NCBI GenBank assembly: GCA_037783545.1
Contig: JBBELK010000162.1
Location: 1,674,001 to 1,738,000, forward strand
Length of the DNA: 64,000 nucleotides
Source: Henricia sp. BOLD:AAB3569
Taxonomy: Eukaryota > Echinodermata > Asteroidea > Spinulosida > Echinasteridae
Direction: 5' to 3'
Each line of letters starts with the position of its first letter. The first letter of the stretch is position 1. Under the pieces are notes generated by a model, which saw only the letters and a list, made by a program, of their open reading frames with translations, was not told where the DNA came from and searched no databases. A program made the translations under genes and the position numbers. This document shows, in pieces, positions 6,123-64,000 of this stretch.

Positions 6123-6403
6123 TTGATCACGTTCACAGACGCCATCTTCGTATGAAAACATTCTACTGCGTATTAAACGCCATAAAGTACGCGCACGCAC
6201 ATCCTGGAACATGTTCCAAACACGCGCGCGTGTTGCTCGAAATTTATTCGAAATACGGCGCAACCGATGCGCGTCACAACAAAATACGCTCAAACTCACG
6301 ATGCACGTGGCAATTTGTAGGAAGTGACGTCATTTGAACGTGATCAATTACCGTTCTTGACCCTATTCACATGCATTGGTAAAACGCACGTGTTGTATAC
6401 GCA

Positions 6404-6568
6404 GCAGCCGATTTCACGAATCCTTACGCACTGCGTAAGCCCACTTGCGCAACTTTTTATTGCATAAGCTGCGCCACATTCCTGTGATAATTATACACGC
6501 AAGCCTATGGGGCTGATACCATTTTCAAAATTTGCGCAAGCTACGCAATTTTTCGTGAAATCGGCTGC
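6404..6568. mobile_element. Short foldback MITE (GCAGCCGATTTCACGAA ends)
   Basis: The termini GCAGCCGATTTCACGAA and TTCGTGAAATCGGCTGC are perfect inverted repeats of 17 bp. The interior is built of TTGCGCAA-like words. A longer relative with the same ends lies at about 60669-61325, inserted in the foldback element. Confidence 0.88.
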
Positions 6569-7317
6569 AGGTGTTATCCGTGCGGTGTAAACTCATTACA
6601 GTGGTGAATAATAATTTCACTTTTTCTATTTACCGTACTTCTATATACACCTGTCATGCAAATTTACAGGTTTTGCTCGCGTGCAGGACGTGCCTCTATA
6701 ACTTTACGTAAATTACCCCTAATATTGACCCCCATTCCCCTCTACCTCTCAAATGCCATCTCCTTCTAGTTTGCTGGAGGTCTGTGTATGACGTGCAGGG
6801 ATCGTTTCTTGTCACTTTTTTGACAAACTATATCACGTGTCCTAAAATCTAGGAAGCTATAATTATAGGTTTACCTAGGGTGTAGTGAGGGTGGCGCCCT
6901 AAGTTCTCTTTTTACATGGAATATACCCTCCATGACAAACCATACCATCCCCTTTCTGTACTTCTCGGCACCACGGACTAGATGAACGGAGCATTTGTAT
7001 TACCTTTTTTACAACTGTGAGAGTATGACGTCAGGGTAATTGGCACTAAGCATTCGCTGGTAATCTGAAACGTACATTGCCAAACGCACAAAGAAACATT
7101 TTACTGGGTTAAGTGTAGACACAGTAACCATGGCAACACACAAAGAGTGACATTTTAATTCTAGTGCTCTATCAGTGTCTTTATAAAAGTTGCGTTCGTT
7201 TAGCTTACACGTGTAGCACGAACATATATCAGCGCGTCCGATTCGCCACACGTAATGATACTCGTCTATATAGTTATTGCAAACTACAGGGTGGACCCAT
7301 CGTTCATTTTTGACTTG
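6569..7317. other. No gene seen; relic of a TIR element at ~7030-7160
   Basis: Mostly unique intergenic sequence. About 7030-7160 matches the central and right part of the element at 48169-48333: both contain CATTCGCTGGTAATCTGAAACGT and later CCATGGCAACACACAAAG. It is therefore a partial copy of that MITE. Confidence 0.65.
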
Positions 7318-7770
7318 TAAGGGTGCACCCACATAACAGGCAGAAATCGGTGCGCCGAGCTTATGAACAGTTTGCATTTTTCTGTAATATTAGAGAGAGG
7401 TCGACATGTGCGTTCAGACGATCGTTGTTAACTTATAAGTAAGTCGTTGGTAGTGGGCGCTCGTGAGTAATACGTCACACCTACCCGCGATCACGCTGGC
7501 GCTCCCACTGCGACCTGAAAAGTATGAAAGCGTGAGGCAAAGCGCAGTAGGGTCTCTGAGAACGATTCGGTGACGAGTCAAGGATGAAAGAGGGTCGCCA
7601 TGAGCTACCTTGAGCGCCAAACCTCGGCACTTGTTTTGGGCATGCTCAAAACAAGCGCAGCGGGTCGGCGCTCTGACGGGTGCACCCAAGTAAATAGGCA
7701 GAGATCTGTGCGCCGAGCTCATGAATATTTTGTATGCCCTCAATTTCTTCTTTATTAGGGAGAGTTGCGA
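7318..7770. repeat. Direct repeat pair flanking a 270-bp block
   Basis: 7318-7402 and 7674-7770 are similar direct repeats (shared GGGTGCACCCA, AGGCAGA, TGTGCGCCGAGC / GTGCGCCGAGC, ATGAA). Between them, 7403-7530 begins GTTCAGACGATCGTTGTTAACTTATAAGTAAG and resembles the left end of the element at 58723 and, in inverse orientation, parts of 11080-11200. The block is probably a transposon end caught between duplicated flanks. Confidence 0.6.
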
Positions 7771-11139: not shown

Positions 11140-11360
11140 GTATAAGCTCGTAAGTAGTGACCGTGTAGACGCACTTACTTACAAGTTACCAACGACGATT
11201 TGCCCACGAGAAATCTTATGAGTATCGCGCTACTTACGAGCGCGCACAGTTGGTATATGGGCCGTTTGCATGCTTGCGCGTCGTTGTTAAAGCACCGTGT
11301 GGACGCGCGTCGTTGTTAAATTTACCTTCGAAGGTAGTGCCCGTCTGAACATGGCTATTA
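11140..11360. mobile_element. Uninterrupted copy of the ~220-bp element G
   Basis: This copy reads continuously through TACCAACGACGATTTGCCCA, GAGCGCGCACAGTTGGTATA, GCGTCGTTGTTAAAGCACCG and CGTCTGAACATG. The same sequence occurs at 58723-62362, where it is split by two insertions. The intact copy therefore serves as the empty-site reference for the nested transposons there. Confidence 0.8.
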
Positions 11361-18949: not shown

Positions 18950-19248
18950 TTAATGCAGACATTATTCGCATTATAGAAGCCATCTTTCCATTCGTGTTCG
19001 CGGAATCGTAAACTGCTGATGAAAACGTAAACATGCCACGAAATAACAACGTGTATTCAACTTAAAGAGGGTGATCTACACTTTTAAATGGTGTGAGATC
19101 TATGTAGGTACACGTCATTAGGTTTTAGTAACAGAGGAATATTTATGGATTGTGCCAATTTGAGCCGTGATTTTCCCCAAGTCGTTAGGCTCCATGAGCC
19201 AATGTCCGCAGGTTTTCCATATGGTCAGCTATTTCGCGGGGGAATTAA

Positions 19249-20058
19249 AGGGACACACCGGCTTACTGTTTACATAATGTACCGATCTAGCATCATTGAC
19301 AATAAATTTTCGACGGTCGTAGTAAAAAAAATCAAAATCAAAATGTCACGTAATTAACTAGAAATGTTTAAAATTAACAAAAGAGACAAATGTTGGGCTA
19401 TACGCTTTACCAGCCGTCGCGATGTATTATGTATCATGCGTTTGTAAATAAAGGTGGCGTTCGATATGGGTCGACACGTGTTTAACCTCGATTTCTTTGT
19501 TTTCCCTGACTCATCACATCTTGCATGATCCCTCAGGTCAGCGCTGACTCGAGGAAACAACTCGAACGCAACTTTTTGGTGTCTTTAGCGCCCGCAATAG
19601 GCCAATGCTGTTTTTTCTTCGGTATTATTTATCGCCGCGAAGCGAAGACACGAAAATCTGAGAGATTCTTTTGTCCATATCAACACCCAGAAACCCTTCT
19701 TATGAAATCTGTTGGCAGATTTGTGTACAAATTGGAAAATACGGTATGTACATAGTGTTCGTAGGACATTATTTTCCAACAAGAAGAGAAACCAACCACG
19801 AATGACAAAAGCAACTCGCACTTCGCGCTGGTTTCTACGGCTGGAAACTAAACTAACTCCAAGACCACGTGATTTATCCAAACCATTATCTGGTTCGGAT
19901 AAATCACGTGACCTTGATTTGTTTTGAAAAATGCTCAAAAACGGCCAAATTTGGTGGTTTCTTTTCAGGTTCTCTTCAGTCTATTTCGGAAAGACTTTTA
20001 GAATCATGTATGGGTCTATTTCGAGCCCAAAATACCACAACAAATCCGGTATGTCCCT
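19249..20058. mobile_element. TTAA-flanked TIR element, family C, 810-bp copy
   Basis: TTAA at 19245-19248 and 20059-20062 flanks ends AGGGACACACCGGCTTA and AAATCCGGTATGTCCCT, which are imperfect inverted repeats. A perfect internal hairpin, CACGTGATTTATCC / GGATAAATCACGTG, lies at about 19865-19912. Relatives are at 59756-60124 and, in reverse orientation, 61518-62280. TTAA target sites point to mobilisation by a piggyBac-type transposase, none of which is encoded here. Confidence 0.9.
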
Positions 20059-20062
20059 TTAA

Positions 20063-36026: not shown

Positions 36027-37172
36027 TTTGGCTGGAAACTCGTACATGTCGCGGCTTCCATTAAAACAGAAACAAAGTTGCATGGTGTTGTAAGTGAGAA
36101 TGACGGCGCAGATGATGCGTGGGAAATTTAGCTTTGTTTACCAAATTCTGTTCAATTCTTGTGCTACACTCAGTGGGTCATATTTCTTGATCCTTGTATA
36201 ACAATAATATACGGATACAGCACTTGTTCAACGCAATGTTTCTTGGGTGTTCTTCTTCTTTTAGTTTTGGAAAGTTTATCACCCCAAGAATATAGTTTCA
36301 TTAGAACATTGTGATTTTTCGCTCAACATTTTAACAGGGATGTGGTTTTTCAGGTTTTTTCCTGAAATCGGGTTTTTTAGCCAAAAAACATGACTCTTGT
36401 GAAACGTGTGATTCACACACGCCGTAATGGCTTCACGCTGCGCACTCGCAATTTCAGGTTTTTCTTCTCAAACATCCAATCACATCCCTGATTTAACAGA
36501 CAAAATGGTCAACAACGCCGTATGTACATGTATTCTTTCTCTATAGGAAGAAACCGTATAAACAGTATAATCTATAAACCTAAAATCCATTCTCTGGGAA
36601 GACGCTGGATTTTATCTCACGGATTACCTGTTCGCTTCAGGCTACCAGGCACGTCGTGGATGCCCGTCAATAGCGGCCAGTCTTTTTCTTCCATATACAA
36701 TCAAAACAAAATGGACAGTACTAGGAATTTTTCATTATCAACATCACTGATGTGGATACTTTTGCATTCAAATTTTAAAAGCCTAAATTTATTGTGGGTG
36801 ATAAATTCCCAATGAAAAAGCGGTCTAACGAAACGCTGCTTTGAAAGCAGTGACTTTATTAATTCATGCATGCACACATTTACCCCGAAAAGCCGGATTT
36901 TGTTTGTATTATTTACAATTTTGTACATGTTTATGTAAATTATGTTAATGCAAATTATATAATGTGTTTTTCGATGCTCCATATTATCTTCACAACATTC
37001 GGTAAACTCCGATACACCGATTAACGACAAAGCCATTTTCAATCGTTTTCACTGAATCAGTGTATATAGAATTGCTGACTGAGATGGTGCCAGATTATAC
37101 CTTGGACCGCATACATGAAACGCATTATTCGCTTAATTACACACTTTATTGCAATTTTTACATTCAACTTAA

Positions 37173-37533
37173 AGGAGCGTGACCAGAGTTTCTGGAAAAT
37201 AGTTTTCGATGTAACTTACCAATATTATCAAGTAACTCCCATACACACCTCCCATGTCCCAAAAACCCGAAAACATTCGCAATTTCCAGTAAAATATTGA
37301 ACAAAACTATCGAGTCGGCTTTCAGCGTATAAACGTTGATACTGGAAATTTAGTTTACAAATAATCGGTGGATTTTCGACGATATCCTCGGAAATATGCG
37401 GCCTAGAAGCGCGGGAGTTTCAGTTTCGTAATCAGAAAAATATAACGGATGTTATGATATAAAAATCTCATGACCCATAAGGTAAGTCCCGGGGAGTTAT
37501 GGGTAAAAAAAAAGGTGATCTGGTCACACTCCT
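37173..37533. mobile_element. TTAA-flanked TIR element, family H
   Basis: TTAA at 37169-37172 and 37534-37537 flanks AGGAGCGTGACCAGA and TCTGGTCACACTCCT, 15-bp inverted repeats with one mismatch. The 361-bp interior is non-coding. The ends differ from families A and C, so this is a third TTAA-inserting non-autonomous family in the window. Confidence 0.88.
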
Positions 37534-40116
37534 TTAAGGTATCCACCAAAGTTGCCCGGTGTTGACAATGAACTTTATTTCATCGTTTGGAGTTTCTATA
37601 AATATATTGTTATATTATCTCTTTCAGTGCAATGTGGTCGATTCAAGAAAGAAAGTCCACTGAGCTATCCACAATACTCAATACCGGTTTTGGAAACCTT
37701 TAGTAATTCTCAAAGTTCACACTTGTCGCATAAAATCGTCCGTAACTTTCCATGTGCCAATATGTCACTGCATTGGAGTGACTTTACCTCCTATAAGGCC
37801 ATCGATTAACGCGGCTCGCTTCCCGAACTCGTGGTCATAAGGTCATTTCACACTCGCGCTGAAGCTGTTCCGTCGTGGTGATTTCTAGACCACAAATGTC
37901 TCCTTTTTCGGTCGTTTTCGTAACTCATTTTCGCACACGTGTCTATACACACGTTTATAAAGCCCTCGTGTGCCATTTGCAAACATTTGAAAACGAAAAT
38001 CTAAATTTATTTTGCAGTATAGCGTATTGATGCATGTATGATTACAGTTTTAAATGTAAGTTTTGTGCCGTTGTTTGGGCCCGGAAAAATAGCGACTGCA
38101 GAATTGTGGGCGTTTCTACACGGCAGATAAACAATACACAATGCCCTCACTGGCGAACAAGTTTTTGAACTTTCCGGCATCTTGACAACTTTTTATACCT
38201 TTAGTGGTAAAAATTTCTTGAAAAATTTGAATCCTTTCAAAACTTTAGGTTGTTTTTGTTAGCAAAAGTAATGATTTCAAAGTTGCCAAAATGGCACTAT
38301 ATTGTGCAAATTTTGGACCTTCATGTTTTGTTTTCAAAGGTTGATTTGAATGGAGGAGGGCATCAATAACCCATATGAATAAACAGAACTTCAATAAGTG
38401 CTGATTTGTGGTGTATGAATATTGTGAGAAAATGAGCAGATCGAACGTTTGAGCCACAGTTGTGGGCAGATATTAGACAAACAGATGAAAATGTCCAATT
38501 TATCATGTCATGTAGGTAAGGTATTATCGTAATGTGATAACAAAATTGGGTTTTTTGAGCACACGTCATATGCCTGTTCCTATATCCATGTATCCTGCAA
38601 AATCCTAAGAAAAGAAAGAATACCCCGTTTTAGGGATGTCTATAATCGTTCAGAATAACACAAAAATCAAATTCTAGCAGAAAATAATTGTGTTTTTCCA
38701 AGATTTAATATGTAGGCCTATAATGTTTCTTTGGAAGCCTTTAATTTTTCCAGGAAAACTCCGAATGTGCTCATAACATAACATCATAAAAGCACCTAAT
38801 CTCGAGCAAAATTCCATTTTTGCCAGAACACCATAGCAACCACTTTGAAGGCTTATTTTACAAAATGTGAAATTGTTGGTGCCCAAAATCTACAATTTCG
38901 TGAAGCTAAATACCAATCAAAGTCAGATTTTAAAATAGCGAAAATTACAAATTCGAATTTGCTGCAGGGTACGAAGCAAAACATGAAGCATTCCCTGGAC
39001 GGCGTCTAGGTAGCTAAGGATATATAACTGGGATCCGTTCTGCGGAAGGTCAAGTTCCCGCCGCACCTGTACATATTACTAATTGTGTAGGCCACATAGG
39101 AACGTGCACAACGATCGTACACTGTAAACAACTAGTGTTGAGTCACAGGTGTTTTTCTGTTGAAAAATTCAAAATCGAACTTTTACTGTTTTTGGAATTT
39201 TCTTCCGTCTGTGTACATTTTAAAAACATTTTTTTTCTGTTTGAATACAGACGATTTGCCGTTAAGTTACAGGTTTGTTCAGGAACAAGACACTTTGGAT
39301 CTTCACCCGTTAAAATACAGCCATGTTACCGTTCAGAAACGGAGAATATTCTGTTATATCCCGTCGATGTTCCCTGGTATACAACATCAGTCGAGCTCTT
39401 ACAGTTTTTTCCAACCGCTTACACACGATACGTGCAACAAAAGCCACAATATTCGAATGCAAACACACGCCGTTCGCAAACGTTCACCCTATGCGCAAAA
39501 CGTAAAGTACATTATGGTTGTTTTCGCACCAACTGCCATACAGAAAACGTCCAGTGCAAGCCACTTAACGGACAAACGTTTACTTAACACGGATCTCTTT
39601 TGTGTGCATTTATGACACTATTTTCAAAAAGTAAAAGCTTGTACCAGTTGAAATAGTTCTTACCTCACACAAATAAATCCAAACAACACACGAAGTCGAT
39701 CAGTTATCACGAGCGAAAACACAATATTACTGGATTATATTTTGAGATGAAAATGTATATTAGATGAGAAGGCCTTACAGGATCTGAAGGACATCCAGAA
39801 AAGAAAGGTAAAGAGGAGGGAAGGGAGAAACTAAAATGAATTTGTTTTTCCTTTCATGACAAAAGACCCATCACCCTTATTGATACATAGACCGGCACGG
39901 TCATCAATTTTGATTCAGGAAAACAACGCTGCCCAGAATGTGAACCGGATGGAAGGCCTTTCACTTGTGAAGTTGGTTTGTTTTAAACAATGAAAAGTTT
40001 TCATACACATGTCAATCAGCTTCAAATCACCATTGTATGTCTCAAATACGATATGTCAATTATCTTACGCAAGTTATCGACCGTTGTGGAATTGTTTTCA
40101 AACATTTTTTTTTCCT

Positions 40117-55937: not shown

Positions 55938-56327
55938 GACTTTTTGAGACGCTCGGTGGCAGCAAACAAACTGGGGCCAATTTCATAAAGCAATTAAGCA
56001 GAAAAATTTGCTTAATCAAAAATTTCTTTGCTTTATAAAAATGAGTCAATAGTCAAAATTGCATGTCAACTTGTGTTTTTCACAAGAATATCTGCTATTC
56101 TTGCTAAAAACACAAGTTGAAGTACAATTTTTATTATTAACCCATTTTTATAAAGCACACAAATTTTTGATTAAGCAAATTTTTCTGCTTAACTGCTTTA
56201 TGAAATTGGCCCCTGGTCCTTTACCATTGGTTACGTCATGTTGACCACGCGCACTTCAGCTCAAACGTGACGTAAACAATGGAAAAGGACCAGTTTGTTT
56301 GCTGCCACCACGAGTTTCAAAAGTCTC
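55938..56327. mobile_element. Palindromic element carrying a nested palindromic element
   Basis: The outer ends, AGACTTTTTGAGACGCTCGG and a matching CCACGAGTTTCAAAAGTCT, include a perfect 20-bp pair GGTGGCAGCAAACAAACTGG (55955-55974) / CCAGTTTGTTTGCTGCCACC (56290-56309). Right of the insert, TCCTTTACCATTGGTTACGT pairs with ACGTAAACAATGGAAAAGGA. The left arm is cut after AACTGG by an inner element (about 55975-56213) with ends GGCCAATTTCATAAAGC and its inverse. CTGG is repeated on both sides of the insert. Confidence 0.9.
55975..56213. mobile_element. Inner palindromic MITE (GGCCAATTTCATAAAG ends)
   Basis: The ends, GGCCAATTTCATAAAGCAA and CTTTATGAAATTGGCC, are inverted repeats. Long inner arms pair as well: TTAAGCAGAAAAATTTGCTT with AAGCAAATTTTTCTGCTTAA, and ACTTGTGTTTTT with AAAAACACAAGT. 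The terminal GGGCC-AATTTCATA theme recurs in the element at 63617-63874, so both may use the same transposase. Confidence 0.9.
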
Positions 56328-58300: not shown

Positions 58301-58644
58301 GGCTAGTGCTCTTTTGCGACGGAGGATGACGTAAACCGCGAAACCAGCTTCATTAGTCGAATACATGATTACCTTGTTTCCCGACACAGCATTCTGTGAA
58401 GTACAAAACAACTAAGGGAGCAAACCATATTTTTTTATATTTTTGGCCAAGACTAACCATTTTTTCCCACCTTGATCGGACAGTATAGGGTTCTTAAAGT
58501 TATTTCTTAATGAAATTATTACCGCATGCGCCATAATCATGTTTTCCCATCGATAACGATGAATATTGTGAAATGATTAAAAATAACAATTTTTGTTTAT
58601 CAATTTTATTTAATTCTTAACAAATTTTATTTAAATGACGTAAG

Positions 58645-58722
58645 TAACTTGTATGACCACCGTGGGCATTCACACATTCCAAACAACGATTAAACATATA
58701 GATCGATTGGTCTATCATTAGG
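58645..58722 (-). pseudogene. Tc1/mariner transposase, last ~25 codons
   Basis: On the minus strand this reads MIDQSIYMFNRCLECVNAHG then GHTSYL, matching the RRCQAVIxAxGGHTxY ending of Tc1/mariner-type transposases. The preceding part of the protein is 3.6 kb away at 62363-62436, separated by inserted elements. The fragment is unrelated in sequence to the Tc1-like copy at 1606-2592. Confidence 0.75.
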
Positions 58723-59755
58723 TTGTTAACTTATAAGTAAGTCATTGGTTGTGGGCACTCGTGAGTAACCAACGACGATTTACCCACGAGAAATCTTATG
58801 AGTAGCGAGCTGCTTACGAGCGCGCACAATAAGCCAGTTGCGTGATAGATTTGCATAAATCCTAGAGTCCTGCCTCTGCGCTATGGCGCTCGCATATAAG
58901 AGAGTCATGCACCAGACTGCCAGGCCGTTGGCAACGGTTGCCAAGTGGCAAGGGGGTGCACGCTAGAACATGTTAGCCTCGCACATTACTCTATGCATTT
59001 TGAAGCTGTACCATCCGAAATTAGGCCTACATGTTGAAATGAGCATGTTGAAACATGTACTCGCCTTGAAATTTCGTCAAAATAACGAGTTAGAACGTCT
59101 AGTTTGACTCGAAATGGACGTTAACTTTGAAAGCTGGATCGTTCCCAATCTGGAATCTGTGCATGATAAATGCAAGAAAAGAGTAACGATTCCGGGTTAT
59201 GAGACTGGTTTAAAGTTGCCGATTGAACGTCGAACCCGAACGAAGGGAGACGTATATACACTATACAGCAAACTTGACTTGAAATAGGGGAAATAAGATG
59301 ACATGCAGCTGGTAGATATTGCCACAATATGATAAAATTAATATCGCCGTTGATTGTTTATCCATTCGACGGAACATCGTAAGAAATTGGCGAGTTTTAT
59401 ACTGTTCCAGAACGCGCGTTCAACATAACAGCGAGCGACTCTCGTTTTGCGTATATGACCGGCATATTTTAAATACACCTTCCGAAGCCCAAATAAAATC
59501 GCGAGAAATGCATCAACGTATACGCAACTTAATCAATTGGATATATAAATACCGTACACCCTCGCCACTAATTCTTTCTAATATGACATGATAATGCCCC
59601 CTAGAAATTGTAAATTTGGTTAAGAAACATGATTTGGTTAGGAAACATGAATTTTCCCCAAGTTGCTGCGAGAACATTTTTGTATACACGTTTGCTACTA
59701 AATTTGGAAGAATTAATGGCGAGGGTGTACGGTATTTATATCTTCACCTGATTAA

Positions 59756-60124
59756 AGGGACACACCGGCTTCGTTGGGCTATTTTGGGCTCGAAATAGAC
59801 CGATACATTATTCTAAAGCGCTTTCCAGAGTAAATTAGATATCCTGAAAAGACGCCGTCAAATTTGGCAGTTTTTTAGCATTTTTCGAAAAGTCACGTGG
59901 TCTTGTGAGTTAGTTGTATTTCCAGCCGTAGAAACCAGCGCGAAGTGCGAGTTGCTTTTGTCATTCGCGGTTGGTTTCTCTTCTTGTTGGAAAATAATGT
60001 CTCGTTTGTTAATTTGAAACATTTCTAGTTAATTACGTGACATTTTTTTCACAACGACCATCCAAATATTATTGTCAAGGATGCTAGATTGCTACATTGT
60101 GTAAACAGTAAGCCGGTGTTCCCT
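59756..60124. mobile_element. TTAA element family C, internally deleted copy
   Basis: TTAA at 59752-59755 and 60125-60128 flanks AGGGACACACCGGCTTCG and GTAAGCCGGTGTTCCCT. At 369 bp it lacks the middle found in the 763- and 810-bp copies. It was inserted in the spacer of the foldback. Confidence 0.9.
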
Positions 60125-60668
60125 TTAAGTCGCGTACGTTGATGCATTTCTCGCGATTTTATTTGGGCTTCGGAAGGTGTATTTAAAATATGTCGGTCAT
60201 GTACGCAAAACGAGAGTCGCTCGCTGTTATGTTGAACGCGCGTTCTGGAACAGTAAAACTCGCCAATTTCTTACGATGTTCCGATCCGTCGAATTGATAA
60301 ACAATCAACGGCGATATTCATTTTATCATATTGTGGCAAGATTTACCAGCTGCATGTCATCTTATTTCCCCTATTTCAAGTCAAGTTTGCTGTATAGTGT
60401 ATACGTCTCCCTTCGTTCGGGTTCGACGTTCAATCGGCAACTTTAAACCAGTCTCATAACCCGAAATCGTTACTCTTTTCTTGAATTTATCATGCACAGA
60501 TTGGGAACGATCCAGCTTTCAAAGTTAACGTCCAATTCGAGTCAAACAAGACGTTCTAACTCGTTATTTTGACGAAATTTCATGGCGAGTACATGTTTCA
60601 ACATGCTCATTTCAACATGTAATTTCGGATGGTCCAGCTTCAAAATGCATAGAGTAATGTGCGAGGTA

Positions 60669-61325
60669 CTCCAGCAGCCGATTTCACGAAACTTTACGCA
60701 ATTGCGCAAGTCCACTTACGCCATAAACTATTGCGCAACTTGCGCAATAAGTTGCGGCGCGTTTCACGAAAGTTGCGCCACGTTTGGATATGGCGCAACT
60801 CGCCCACTTACGCCATAAAATGTGGCGTAACTTGCGCAATGGTTTTTGGTGGCGTAAGTTGGAAAAATGTGTCGTAGGACAGTGAAAAGTGGCGATAATG
60901 CAGCTAGCTACACGTGCTTATTTACCGTATCGTCAAAGAACTGAACCCCAGCCTTCCGTTAGTAGAAAACGGCCTTTATCAGTGAAATCTTCGACGCGAC
61001 GCATGATGACCGAGCGACGTGACGGCAGCCATGATGACAGTGCAACATTTGTGAAAAACAACGACGTATGTTTTATGTATGACTATTTTATCAAGCGCAA
61101 ACATCCAATAGTTGTTGATAAACTAGAAATTAGCCTCGTCCTAGAAGTTACAAGTGCTAAAGTGAGAAAATAAACGTTGCGCAGCTAAGGAGAGTTTCGT
61201 GAAATCGATCTTGGGTTTATTGCGCAGCTACGCCATAAAGTTATGGCGCAAGTCTTACGCCATGGCGCAAGTTGCGCAGTGTTTCGTGAAATCGGCTGCA
61301 GGTACCGTATACAGACTTTCGCGCC
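60669..61325. mobile_element. Long copy of the GCAGCCGATTTCACGAA foldback MITE, inserted in the right arm
   Basis: The ends CCAGCAGCCGATTTCACGAA and TTCGTGAAATCGGCTGCAGG are inverted repeats. AGGTA occurs at 60664-60668 and 61326-61330 on either side, which looks like a 5-bp target duplication when compared with the uninterrupted left arm. The 165-bp relative is at 6404-6568. A 94-codon frame at 60889-61173 inside is unrecognised. Confidence 0.85.
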
Positions 61326-61517
61326 AGGTAACATTGCTCTAGCGTGCACCCACTTGCCACTTGGCAACCGTTGCCAACGGCCTGGTAGTCTGGTGCACGA
61401 CTCTCTTATTATGCGAGCGCCATAGCGCAGAGGCAGGACTCTAGGATTTATGCAAATCTATCACGCAACTGGCTTATTGGTATATGGGCCGTATGCATGC
61501 TTGCGCGTCGTTGTTAA

Positions 61518-62280
61518 AGGGAACACCGGCTTTGTTGGGCTATTTTGGGCTCGAAATAGACCCATACATTATTCTGAAGCGCTTTCCAGAGTAAATAAGA
61601 TATCTCCTGAAAAGACGCCGTCAAATTTGGCAGTTTTTTTAGCATTTTTCAAACATTCAAGGTCACGTGACTTTTCGGAACCAGATTTTGGTCCCGAAAA
61701 GTCACGTGGTCTTGTGATTAGTTGTATTTCCAGCCGTAGAAACCAGCGCGAAGTGCGAGTTGCTTTTGTCATTCGCGGTTGGTTTCTCTTCTAATGTATT
61801 TTCCAACATGTACACAAATCTGCCAACAGATTTCATAAGAAGGGTTTCTGGGTGTTGATATGGACGAGAGAATCTCTCAGATTTTCGTGTCTTCGCTTCG
61901 CGTTCGCGGCGATGAAAAAACAGCATAGGCCTATTGAGGGCGCTAAAGACACCAAAACGTTGCGTTCGATGTGCTTTCTCGAGTCAGCGCTGACCTGAGG
62001 GATCATGCAAGGTGTGATGAGTCAGGGAAAACAAGGAATCGAGGTTAAACACGTGTCGACCCATATCGAACGCCACCTTTATTTACAAACACATGATACA
62101 TAATACATCGCGCGACGGCTGGTAAAGCGTATAGCCCAACATTTGTCTCTTTTGTTAATTTAAAACATTTCTAGTTCATTACGTGACATTTTGATAATTG
62201 TTTTTCACAACGACCATCGAAATATTATTGGCAAGGATGCTAGATTGCTACATATGTAAACAGTAAGCCGGTGTGCCCCT
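61518..62280. mobile_element. TTAA element family C, 763-bp copy
   Basis: TTAA at 61514-61517 and 62281-62284 flanks AGGGAACACCGGCTTTG and AAGCCGGTGTGCCCCT. The intact element G at 11140-11360 has a single TTAA at the matching site (GTTGTTAAAGCACC), so the empty site is known. An internal hairpin, GTCACGTGACTTTTCGG / CCGAAAAGTCACGTGG, parallels the one in the 19249 copy. Confidence 0.95.
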
Positions 62281-62362
62281 TTAAAGCACCGTGTGGACGC
62301 GCGTCGTTGTTACTGGGACTGTCGTTGTAAACTTTACCTTCGAACGTAGTGCCCGTCTGAAC

Positions 62363-62436
62363 ATGCCTAATGTAATCTTTAGGAAGAGCTGCCCATTCCT
62401 CTACAAGGGCTGTCCTGAGATCATCGATTGTCCTTA
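62363..62436 (-). pseudogene. Tc1/mariner transposase, C-terminal region (upstream part)
   Basis: On the minus strand it reads VRTIDDLRTALVEEWAALPK followed by DYIRH, the block that precedes the C-terminal GGHTxY segment in Tc1/mariner transposases. Element G interrupts the frame at this point and the protein's last codons are at 58645-58722. The N-terminal domain is not in the window, because a minisatellite-bearing segment replaces it from 62440. Confidence 0.75.
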
Positions 62437-62439
62437 CAC

Positions 62440-62870
62440 ACTAAAAAATAAAGGTGCAAATATCCACCTTTTGGGGTGCAAACAAATGCAACACCACCAG
62501 CACCTTTTAGGGTTCAAATTTGCACCCTTAAAAGGGGGTGCAACTTTGCACCCCATGTAAAGGTTCAACTATGCACCTTTAAGGTTCAACTATGCACCTT
62601 TAAGGTTCAACTATGCACCTTTAAGGTTCAACTATCACCTTTAAGGTTCAACTATGCACCTTTGTAGGGTTCAAATTTGAACCCCTGGTTTTCAAAAGGT
62701 GCAAACGTGCTCCTAAAAATTTGCTGGATTCTTTCTAGCTGGGGTTCAGTTTTGCACCTTAGGGGTTGAAATGGGCACCCCACGGGTTCAAATGGGCACC
62801 TTAGGGGTTCAAATGGGCACATCGCGATGGTTGAAATATGCACTTATTTTACAGAGAATACAATGATATT
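62440..62870 (+). repeat. GGTTCAA/TGCACC repeat block with a 21-bp minisatellite
   Basis: The core AAGGTTCAACTATGCACCTT repeats with AGGTTC at 62561, 62582, 62603, 62624 and 62644 (21, 21, 21, 20 bases apart). On both sides degenerate GGTGCAAA / GGGTTCAAAT(T/G)(T/G)G words continue the theme, in inverse orientation on the left. Peptide repeats in the open frames are a consequence of the DNA repeat. Confidence 0.93.
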
Positions 62871-63444
62871 GCATGGTTTTAGTGAATTTTGAAACGCATT
62901 TCAGTGCTTTTTATTTCTCAAAAAAGGTAAAATGCACGAAGTATTCAGAATATCAAAGATTAACTCATTAAAAAAACTCGTATCATAACTACAAGTACAT
63001 GCAGCAACTGTAATGGTATTCTATAGCATTACAACAAAGAATAATTATATTCATTGGCGAATGAAGCACACGCCAAGTGGGGGAACACCAAATATAACCT
63101 TTTAGTTACTGAAAATATAGATATATGACTATACAACACCCGTACTTGTATACATTGGCAAGTCGCAAGAAAGTCAACAGCTGTCTTGAAGAAAATGTAC
63201 AACACATGTTGTACATATGAGTTGGCAAGTAATACTGTTGTGACTGAGATAATAACCATAAATACAAGACACTTAACACTATCATAAGACCAACATAGGA
63301 CCCCCAATCTAAAGGCAAGTCACAAGATGAACTACCACAAAATCATCTCTTTGTCATTGTTCACCTTGTGACCTGTAAAAAGTCTTGTGATGGTCTCGAC
63401 TACAACACAAATTAACAACCTACAAATAACATTATCACACATTT
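62871..63444. other. No gene seen
   Basis: AT-rich sequence. Two overlapping minus-strand frames (63029-63318) have hydrophobic stretches but no recognisable family. Confidence 0.5.
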
Positions 63445-63593
63445 TAACGGTTCAATCGTGTCCCCTTAATCAGTAGAAAGCAAACCCCTCGTGTTTAGAT
63501 CGAGGTTTGGAATGGCTACGTTTAATACCGTCACCTTTTCAATTAACCATTTGCACTTTATAGAACTGATTCAGGGGACACGATTGAACCATT
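63445..63593. mobile_element. ~150-bp TIR element
   Basis: AACGGTTCAATCGTGTCCCC, continuing TTAATCAGT, pairs with ACTGATTCAGGGGACACGAT, continuing TGAACCATT. The repeat is about 28 bp with few mismatches. A decayed relative is at 54813-54910. Confidence 0.87.
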
Positions 63594-63616
63594 TCAACAC
63601 GTGAATAGAGTCTATC

Positions 63617-63874
63617 CAGGGCCTAATTTCATAGAGCTGTTTAACAGCCCATTTTCCCGTTAACCGAGCGTCAGGCTATTTCATAGACATCGTTAACGAT
63701 AAGCAACTGAAAACCTGCCTTAACCGCAGTGACGCAACAATGGCGGTTTCCAAGCGCGCTCATGCTTAAGCACGCCACGACCGTGAAACAGCCTTAACGT
63801 TAGCCCAACTTTTCTGCTACAGTAAGCACACGTTTTCAGCTAGCACTTTAGCAGCTCTATGAAATTGGGCCCTG
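63617..63874. mobile_element. 258-bp MITE (CAGGGCCTAATTTCATAGAG ends)
   Basis: CAGGGCCTAATTTCATAGAG and CTCTATGAAATTGGGCCCTG are inverted repeats with a one-base length difference. The interior contains GTTAAC-type words in both orientations. The ends resemble the inner element at 55975-56213. Confidence 0.88.
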
Positions 63875-64000
63875 ATGGTTTCACAAAGATAATCATGTAC
63901 ATGTACTATAGCAAAACATGTGGAATTTAAACACATTCCTATTTCAATGTAAAAATCTAAAAATGTGTTTACAAAGTTGCTACATAACAAATACAACTTA

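Follow-up and report, generated by a model that had tools for sequence, protein, structure and literature searches.

How much of its own history does a set of transposons record when one element has inserted into another? The question is raised by a stretch of 64,000 nucleotides from the sea star Henricia sp. BOLD:AAB3569 (contig C162, JBBELK010000162.1, positions 1674001-1738000; hereafter the window), in which small DNA transposons lie inside one another over ~4 kb, from 58.6 to 62.44 kb. A sequence-only reading had described this region as a five-layer nest with a readable order of events. We re-derived the junctions in the window and then set them against copies from the window's own genome (740,731,340 bases, 2104 contigs). 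The nest is real, its structure resolves well, and it is of an ordinary kind: the best explanation, in which we have high confidence, is that non-autonomous DNA transposons inserted into one another. The inverted arms, TTAA repeats and ends of a miniature inverted-repeat transposable element (MITE) all exceeded chance in tests on the window. The parts, in window coordinates, are as follows.

58617-58719, minus strand: Tc1-like relic, last part of the C-terminus (open frame ...MFNRCLECVNAHGGHTSY..., stop at its end)
58720-62368, plus strand: element G, delimited by family alignment; own sequence 58720-58827, 61479-61517 and 62285-62368
58828-61478, no strand assigned: foldback, 2651 bp with inserts, ends AATAAGCCAG...CTGGCTTATT; arms 58828-59582 and 59702-61478 (interrupted), middle 59583-59701
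59756-60124, plus strand: TTAA-B, the second TTAA element, in the right foldback arm; 369 bp, TTAA at 59752-59755 and 60125-60128
60675-61298, no strand assigned: GCAGCCG-ended MITE in the right arm; 624 bp, CAG at 60672-60674 and 61299-61301
61518-62280, plus strand: TTAA-A, the first TTAA element, in G; 763 bp, TTAA at 61514-61517 and 62281-62284
62369-62436, minus strand: preceding part of the Tc1-like relic (VRTIDDLRTALVEEWAALPKDYI frame)
62437-64000, no strand assigned: left end of a TA-flanked element in the Tc1 relic; other end at window-equivalent position 67512

Nesting places the Tc1 relic before both G and the TA-flanked element, G before the foldback and TTAA-A, and the foldback before TTAA-B and the MITE. 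The result is a partial order with four levels instead of a complete five-step series; it gives no order within a level, that is, between the foldback and TTAA-A, between TTAA-B and the MITE, or between G and the 5.1-kb TA-flanked element. The inventory of parts and the notion that their order can be read thus stand, with four levels in place of five layers and with a nest that continues past the end of the window. Ordering elements by which one interrupts which, with interruption matrices, is an established method (PMC5657132). The principle is the same here, but the locus is single and yields only a partial order.

Beyond the nesting itself, the direct evidence consists of the TTAA, TTAA, CAG and TA flanks and of unbroken family copies at four sites. 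Joined flanks were compared, ungapped, with the family copies fetched from the genome, and the insertions close because most of these copies are uninterrupted at the sites in question. G had been read as cut by the foldback and separately by a TTAA element; the split G is seen, and both sites close in 27 of 30 loci, with 0-4 mismatches in 44 bases for TTAA-A (6-18 in the other three) and 1-4 mismatches in 32 bases for the foldback, where AA is joined to TT (6-13 in the other three). The TTAA-B site in the right arm closes with 2-6 mismatches in 44 bases in 21 of 28 loci, and its empty state can be seen in the left arm. At the MITE site, GGTACCTGGAATACC is the family sequence; in its place the window carries the MITE with a CAG on either side. 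The empty-site alignments that had been proposed therefore close with TTAA, TTAA and CAG, the MITE site only with the help of other genome copies.

G and the foldback are dispersed families in this genome. With 40 of 596 candidates scored, G had 41 matches among those listed, one of them the window copy at 11.1 kb; with 40 of 1731 scored, the foldback arm (query 58827-59532) had 43, two of them the window's own. Of 29 fetched G loci, 22 had two recognisable ends, and these copies measure 275-298 bp, except for one of 255 bp. The family ends are AGG...CATGNCT, and by the family alignment the nest copy lacks 16 bp beside its left end and ~43 bp inside. The inverted foldback arms were confirmed in the window, and long terminal inverted repeats around a middle characterize the family: two inverted arm pieces are present at 18 of the 28 fetched loci other than the window's (the remaining loci were possibly cut by the 1500-bp flanks), and five independent two-ended copies measure 1949-2167 bp. 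Some foldback loci share flanks, namely L006-L009 and L013 (C517, C54), and L010/L012 and L023/L024 (C333/C305); they lie ~90-100 kb apart or on two contigs, which suggests that large segments are duplicated or that the assembly contains both haplotypes.

Further copies of these families in the window are listed next.

6405-6567, no strand assigned: short MITE relative, CAG on both sides (6402-6404 and 6568-6570)
7406-7470, plus strand: another G left end, boundary approximate
11143-11357, plus strand: G copy used as reference, left-truncated
19249-20058, minus strand: free copy of the TTAA family, 810 bp, TTAA-flanked (19245-20062 with flanks)

Both references that had been proposed within the window turned out to be damaged. 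The G copy at 11.1 kb, taken earlier as intact at 11140-11360, begins ~60 bp inside the family element, although it spans the foldback and TTAA-A sites. The left foldback arm, likewise described as intact, has a 32-bp deletion. All 30 other arm copies recognised at the fetched loci carry the long form, with 64-66 bp between two anchors, and the short form occurs at only two loci, both of which are the window's own left arm; the other arm of L030 has a different deletion at the same site. An imperfect direct repeat (7310-7400 and 7670-7770) flanks the G left end at ~7400.

The two TTAA elements of the nest were confirmed, and the free copy is a further relative. TTAA is duplicated at all three of these copies, and AGGRR is found at all six of their ends. 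Inside the elements, TTAA-A differs from TTAA-B at 12 of 366 positions and from the free copy at 68 of 749, and TTAA-B differs from the free copy at 41 of 368. TTAA on both sides together with AGGRR ends is the signature of T2-MITE/Kolobok elements, as given in PMC6004289. The elements described here may accordingly be called Kolobok-like, by their ends only; unlike Kolobok, they come with no identified transposase. Across the window, a scan for TTAA-flanked inverted ends found 10 pairs (control mean 0.64, maximum 2), five of them inside other inverted repeats and three inside the foldback arms. A further TTAA-flanked element of 361 bp, with AGGRR at both ends, is located at 37169-37537, and a near-palindrome at 55964-56222 (127-bp arms at 87%, 5-bp gap) has TTAA-flanked inverted ends inside.

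The right foldback arm does hold a GCAGCCG-ended MITE, as had been claimed, with a relative at 6402-6570. PIF/Harbinger-type MITEs have a 3-bp CWG duplication, which is matched by the CAG duplicated at both MITE copies examined, two copies only.

The host of the nest extends beyond the window. We take 58617-58719 and 62369-62436 to be the C-terminus of a Tc1-like transposase, by motifs typical of this group; searches of Pfam, NCBIfam and PDB found no relative of the pieces in the window. In 5 kb fetched beyond the window (locus L065), the relic resumes at window-equivalent ~67.5-67.8 kb with FMQDNARP, HTARV and SPDLNPVEH segments, and these, with LRTALVEEW, stand in the order expected of Tc1-like transposons. 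In contrast to such transposons, the relic contains frameshifts and two or more inserts. One of these, the TA-flanked element, measures 5076 bp between its flanks (62437-67512) and splits the relic again. It ends ~3.5 kb past the window, so that its far end is invisible from the window alone, and 28 identical inverted bases, TA included, are found at its ends (62435-62462 and 67487-67514). No transposase frame was recognised in it (L065, 62437-67512). Its inverted ends are identical over 26 bases, and it has numerous GGTGCAAA-like repeats in subterminal position (62451-62816). At ~67.6 kb of L065, ~35 codons between HTARV and SPDLNPVEH are unlike transposase, perhaps another small insert. At the other end of the window, a decayed Tc1-like transposase frame (1758-2360) adjoins a second long inverted repeat (1-1357; arms ~300 bp at 95%, middle ~750 bp).

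Insertion of G into the Tc1 relic is a step that we infer; no uninterrupted Tc1 copy turned up. The claim that G cuts a Tc1/mariner C-terminus holds insofar as a Tc1-like relic flanks G. A 3-bp duplication around G was exact in 6 of 20 unique two-ended copies (300 shuffles: mean best 3.4, maximum 7), which is weak support; seven of the 29 fetched loci were dropped from this count, with one end unrecognised. We also considered a 9-bp duplication, ATC[A/T]TTAGG, and rejected it: the family alignment assigns its last bases to the AGG at the terminus of G itself, and 27 of 3000 random site pairs were as good with the left edge within one base, 34 of 400 with looser edges.

Several observations weigh against the nest of ordinary insertions as explanation. 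The flanks of G, ATT at 58717-58719 and AAT at 62369-62371, do not form an exact duplication, and once they are joined the transposase frame across them is shifted by one base. The foldback-in-G join reads GCGCACAATTGG where the family has GCGCACC[A/G/T]TTGG, and no duplication is seen. The TTAA-B join has 9-22 mismatches in 7 of 28 loci. The MITE join closes at only 1 of 28 loci, with one mismatch in 40 bases; the other 27 have 7-10 mismatches, which stem from a length difference of 2 bp close to the junction. The Tc1 name draws on motif resemblance and on a DDE_3 match of the extended relic that lies below the cut-off (E 0.029, 14.7 bits against 28.6, 15 residues). The counted loci are in part duplicated regions that share flanks.

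The last of these points also bears on whether dispersed repeats were misjoined in the assembly at some junctions, with no insertion there, since every part of the nest is a repeat and the assembly contains duplicated loci with common flanks. The junctions coincide with the ends of elements and have TTAA, TTAA, CAG or TA on either side, a pattern that misjoins are unlikely to reproduce again and again, and we consider the misjoin explanation very improbable. A different challenge comes from the centre of the foldback. Judged from the window only, each arm stops at a TTAA, and 59533-59751 looks like a TTAA-flanked hairpin with inverted ends; the foldback might then be a spacerless palindrome whose central TTAA was hit by two TTAA elements, this hairpin and TTAA-B, or, in a variant, a palindrome made by head-to-head joining at a TTAA. 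Elsewhere in the genome the arm runs through this TTAA into the hairpin-like sequence: the inner-end TTAA is unbroken in 22 of 25 other distinct arm ends, and the three others are altered there without an insert. In all seven loci measured, a middle of 564-1096 bp lies between the TTAA sites. The spacerless palindrome, in either variant, is ruled out by these copies, and a figure of ~3% for two central hits is void with it. Since the arm is continuous through the TTAA in other copies, 59533-59751 represents the innermost 50 bp of each arm together with a middle that is shortened, and TTAA-B lies in the right arm and not, as had been thought, in the spacer. The window foldback matches L006 at 95.6% of 1604 aligned positions and lacks ~470 bp of middle relative to L006 and L021, the two copies from which this size is taken; gaps relative to L019, L030 and L034 are scattered.

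The arms also allow another boundary for the right-arm insert. When 60669-61330 is excised, the two window arms match except for a 1-bp difference at the cut, as if the insert comprised the MITE and 26 further bases, with AGGTA on either side, and as if the left arm were an intact empty site. The extra bases are arm sequence, present in the long form that every other recognised arm copy has, and the form lacking 32 bp is peculiar to the window's own left arm; this boundary is thus refuted, as is a MITE with an AGGTA(C) duplication, and we give the longer insert virtually no credence. The foldback-in-G junction leads to a further question, namely whether this family inserts without a target duplication of fixed length, possibly between AA and TT and by a different integration chemistry. 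Among nine two-ended foldback loci, window included, none has an 8-10 bp duplication and the longest adjacent exact match is 4 bp: one locus (L070, 4 bp) has a match of at least 3 bp and two have 2 bp. The lack of a consistent duplication, the one unusual feature of the nest, is a lead and not a finding, coming from nine loci that may be eroded, and a different chemistry appears unlikely, though less so than the alternatives above. For comparison, Tetris, a foldback element placed as Mutator-like, has an 8-10 bp duplication (PMC4079207). Foldback-like transposons such as Tetris and Galileo share with our family long inverted arms and a middle of variable length and, like the window copy, show no coding capacity; tandem repeats, by which they differ, were not noted in the arms here.

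Dating the layers from arm divergence had been suggested. The arms of the window foldback differ at 17 of 686 aligned positions and by 9 gaps. At six of seven loci that show both inner arm ends, the difference between them is the one found in the window; at the seventh, L032, both ends are of a single type. Part of the arm divergence therefore predates insertion; because most other copies show a constant difference between their arms, arm divergence is no insertion clock, and dating from it is unsound.

For an ordinary nest of non-autonomous transposons, the following scenario may be proposed. A decayed Tc1-like element would have taken up element G and, separately, the TA-flanked element of ~5.1 kb. 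G would next have received the long-armed foldback and the Kolobok-like TTAA-A, and later the right foldback arm would have received TTAA-B, a shorter member of the same TTAA family, and the CAG-duplicating MITE. Every element would have moved by cut-and-paste, with transposase supplied from elsewhere. Scans of viral contigs and genome contigs for related sequence gave four loci, none resembling the window, and Rfam gave no matches at gathering thresholds.

No function of the nest is seen beyond its record of a partial insertion order. Its main value is a corrected annotation and a caution: both references within the window that seemed intact are damaged, and the foldback centre, as seen in the window alone, was misleading until other genome copies were read. 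The inconsistent target duplication of the foldback family merits a proper survey.

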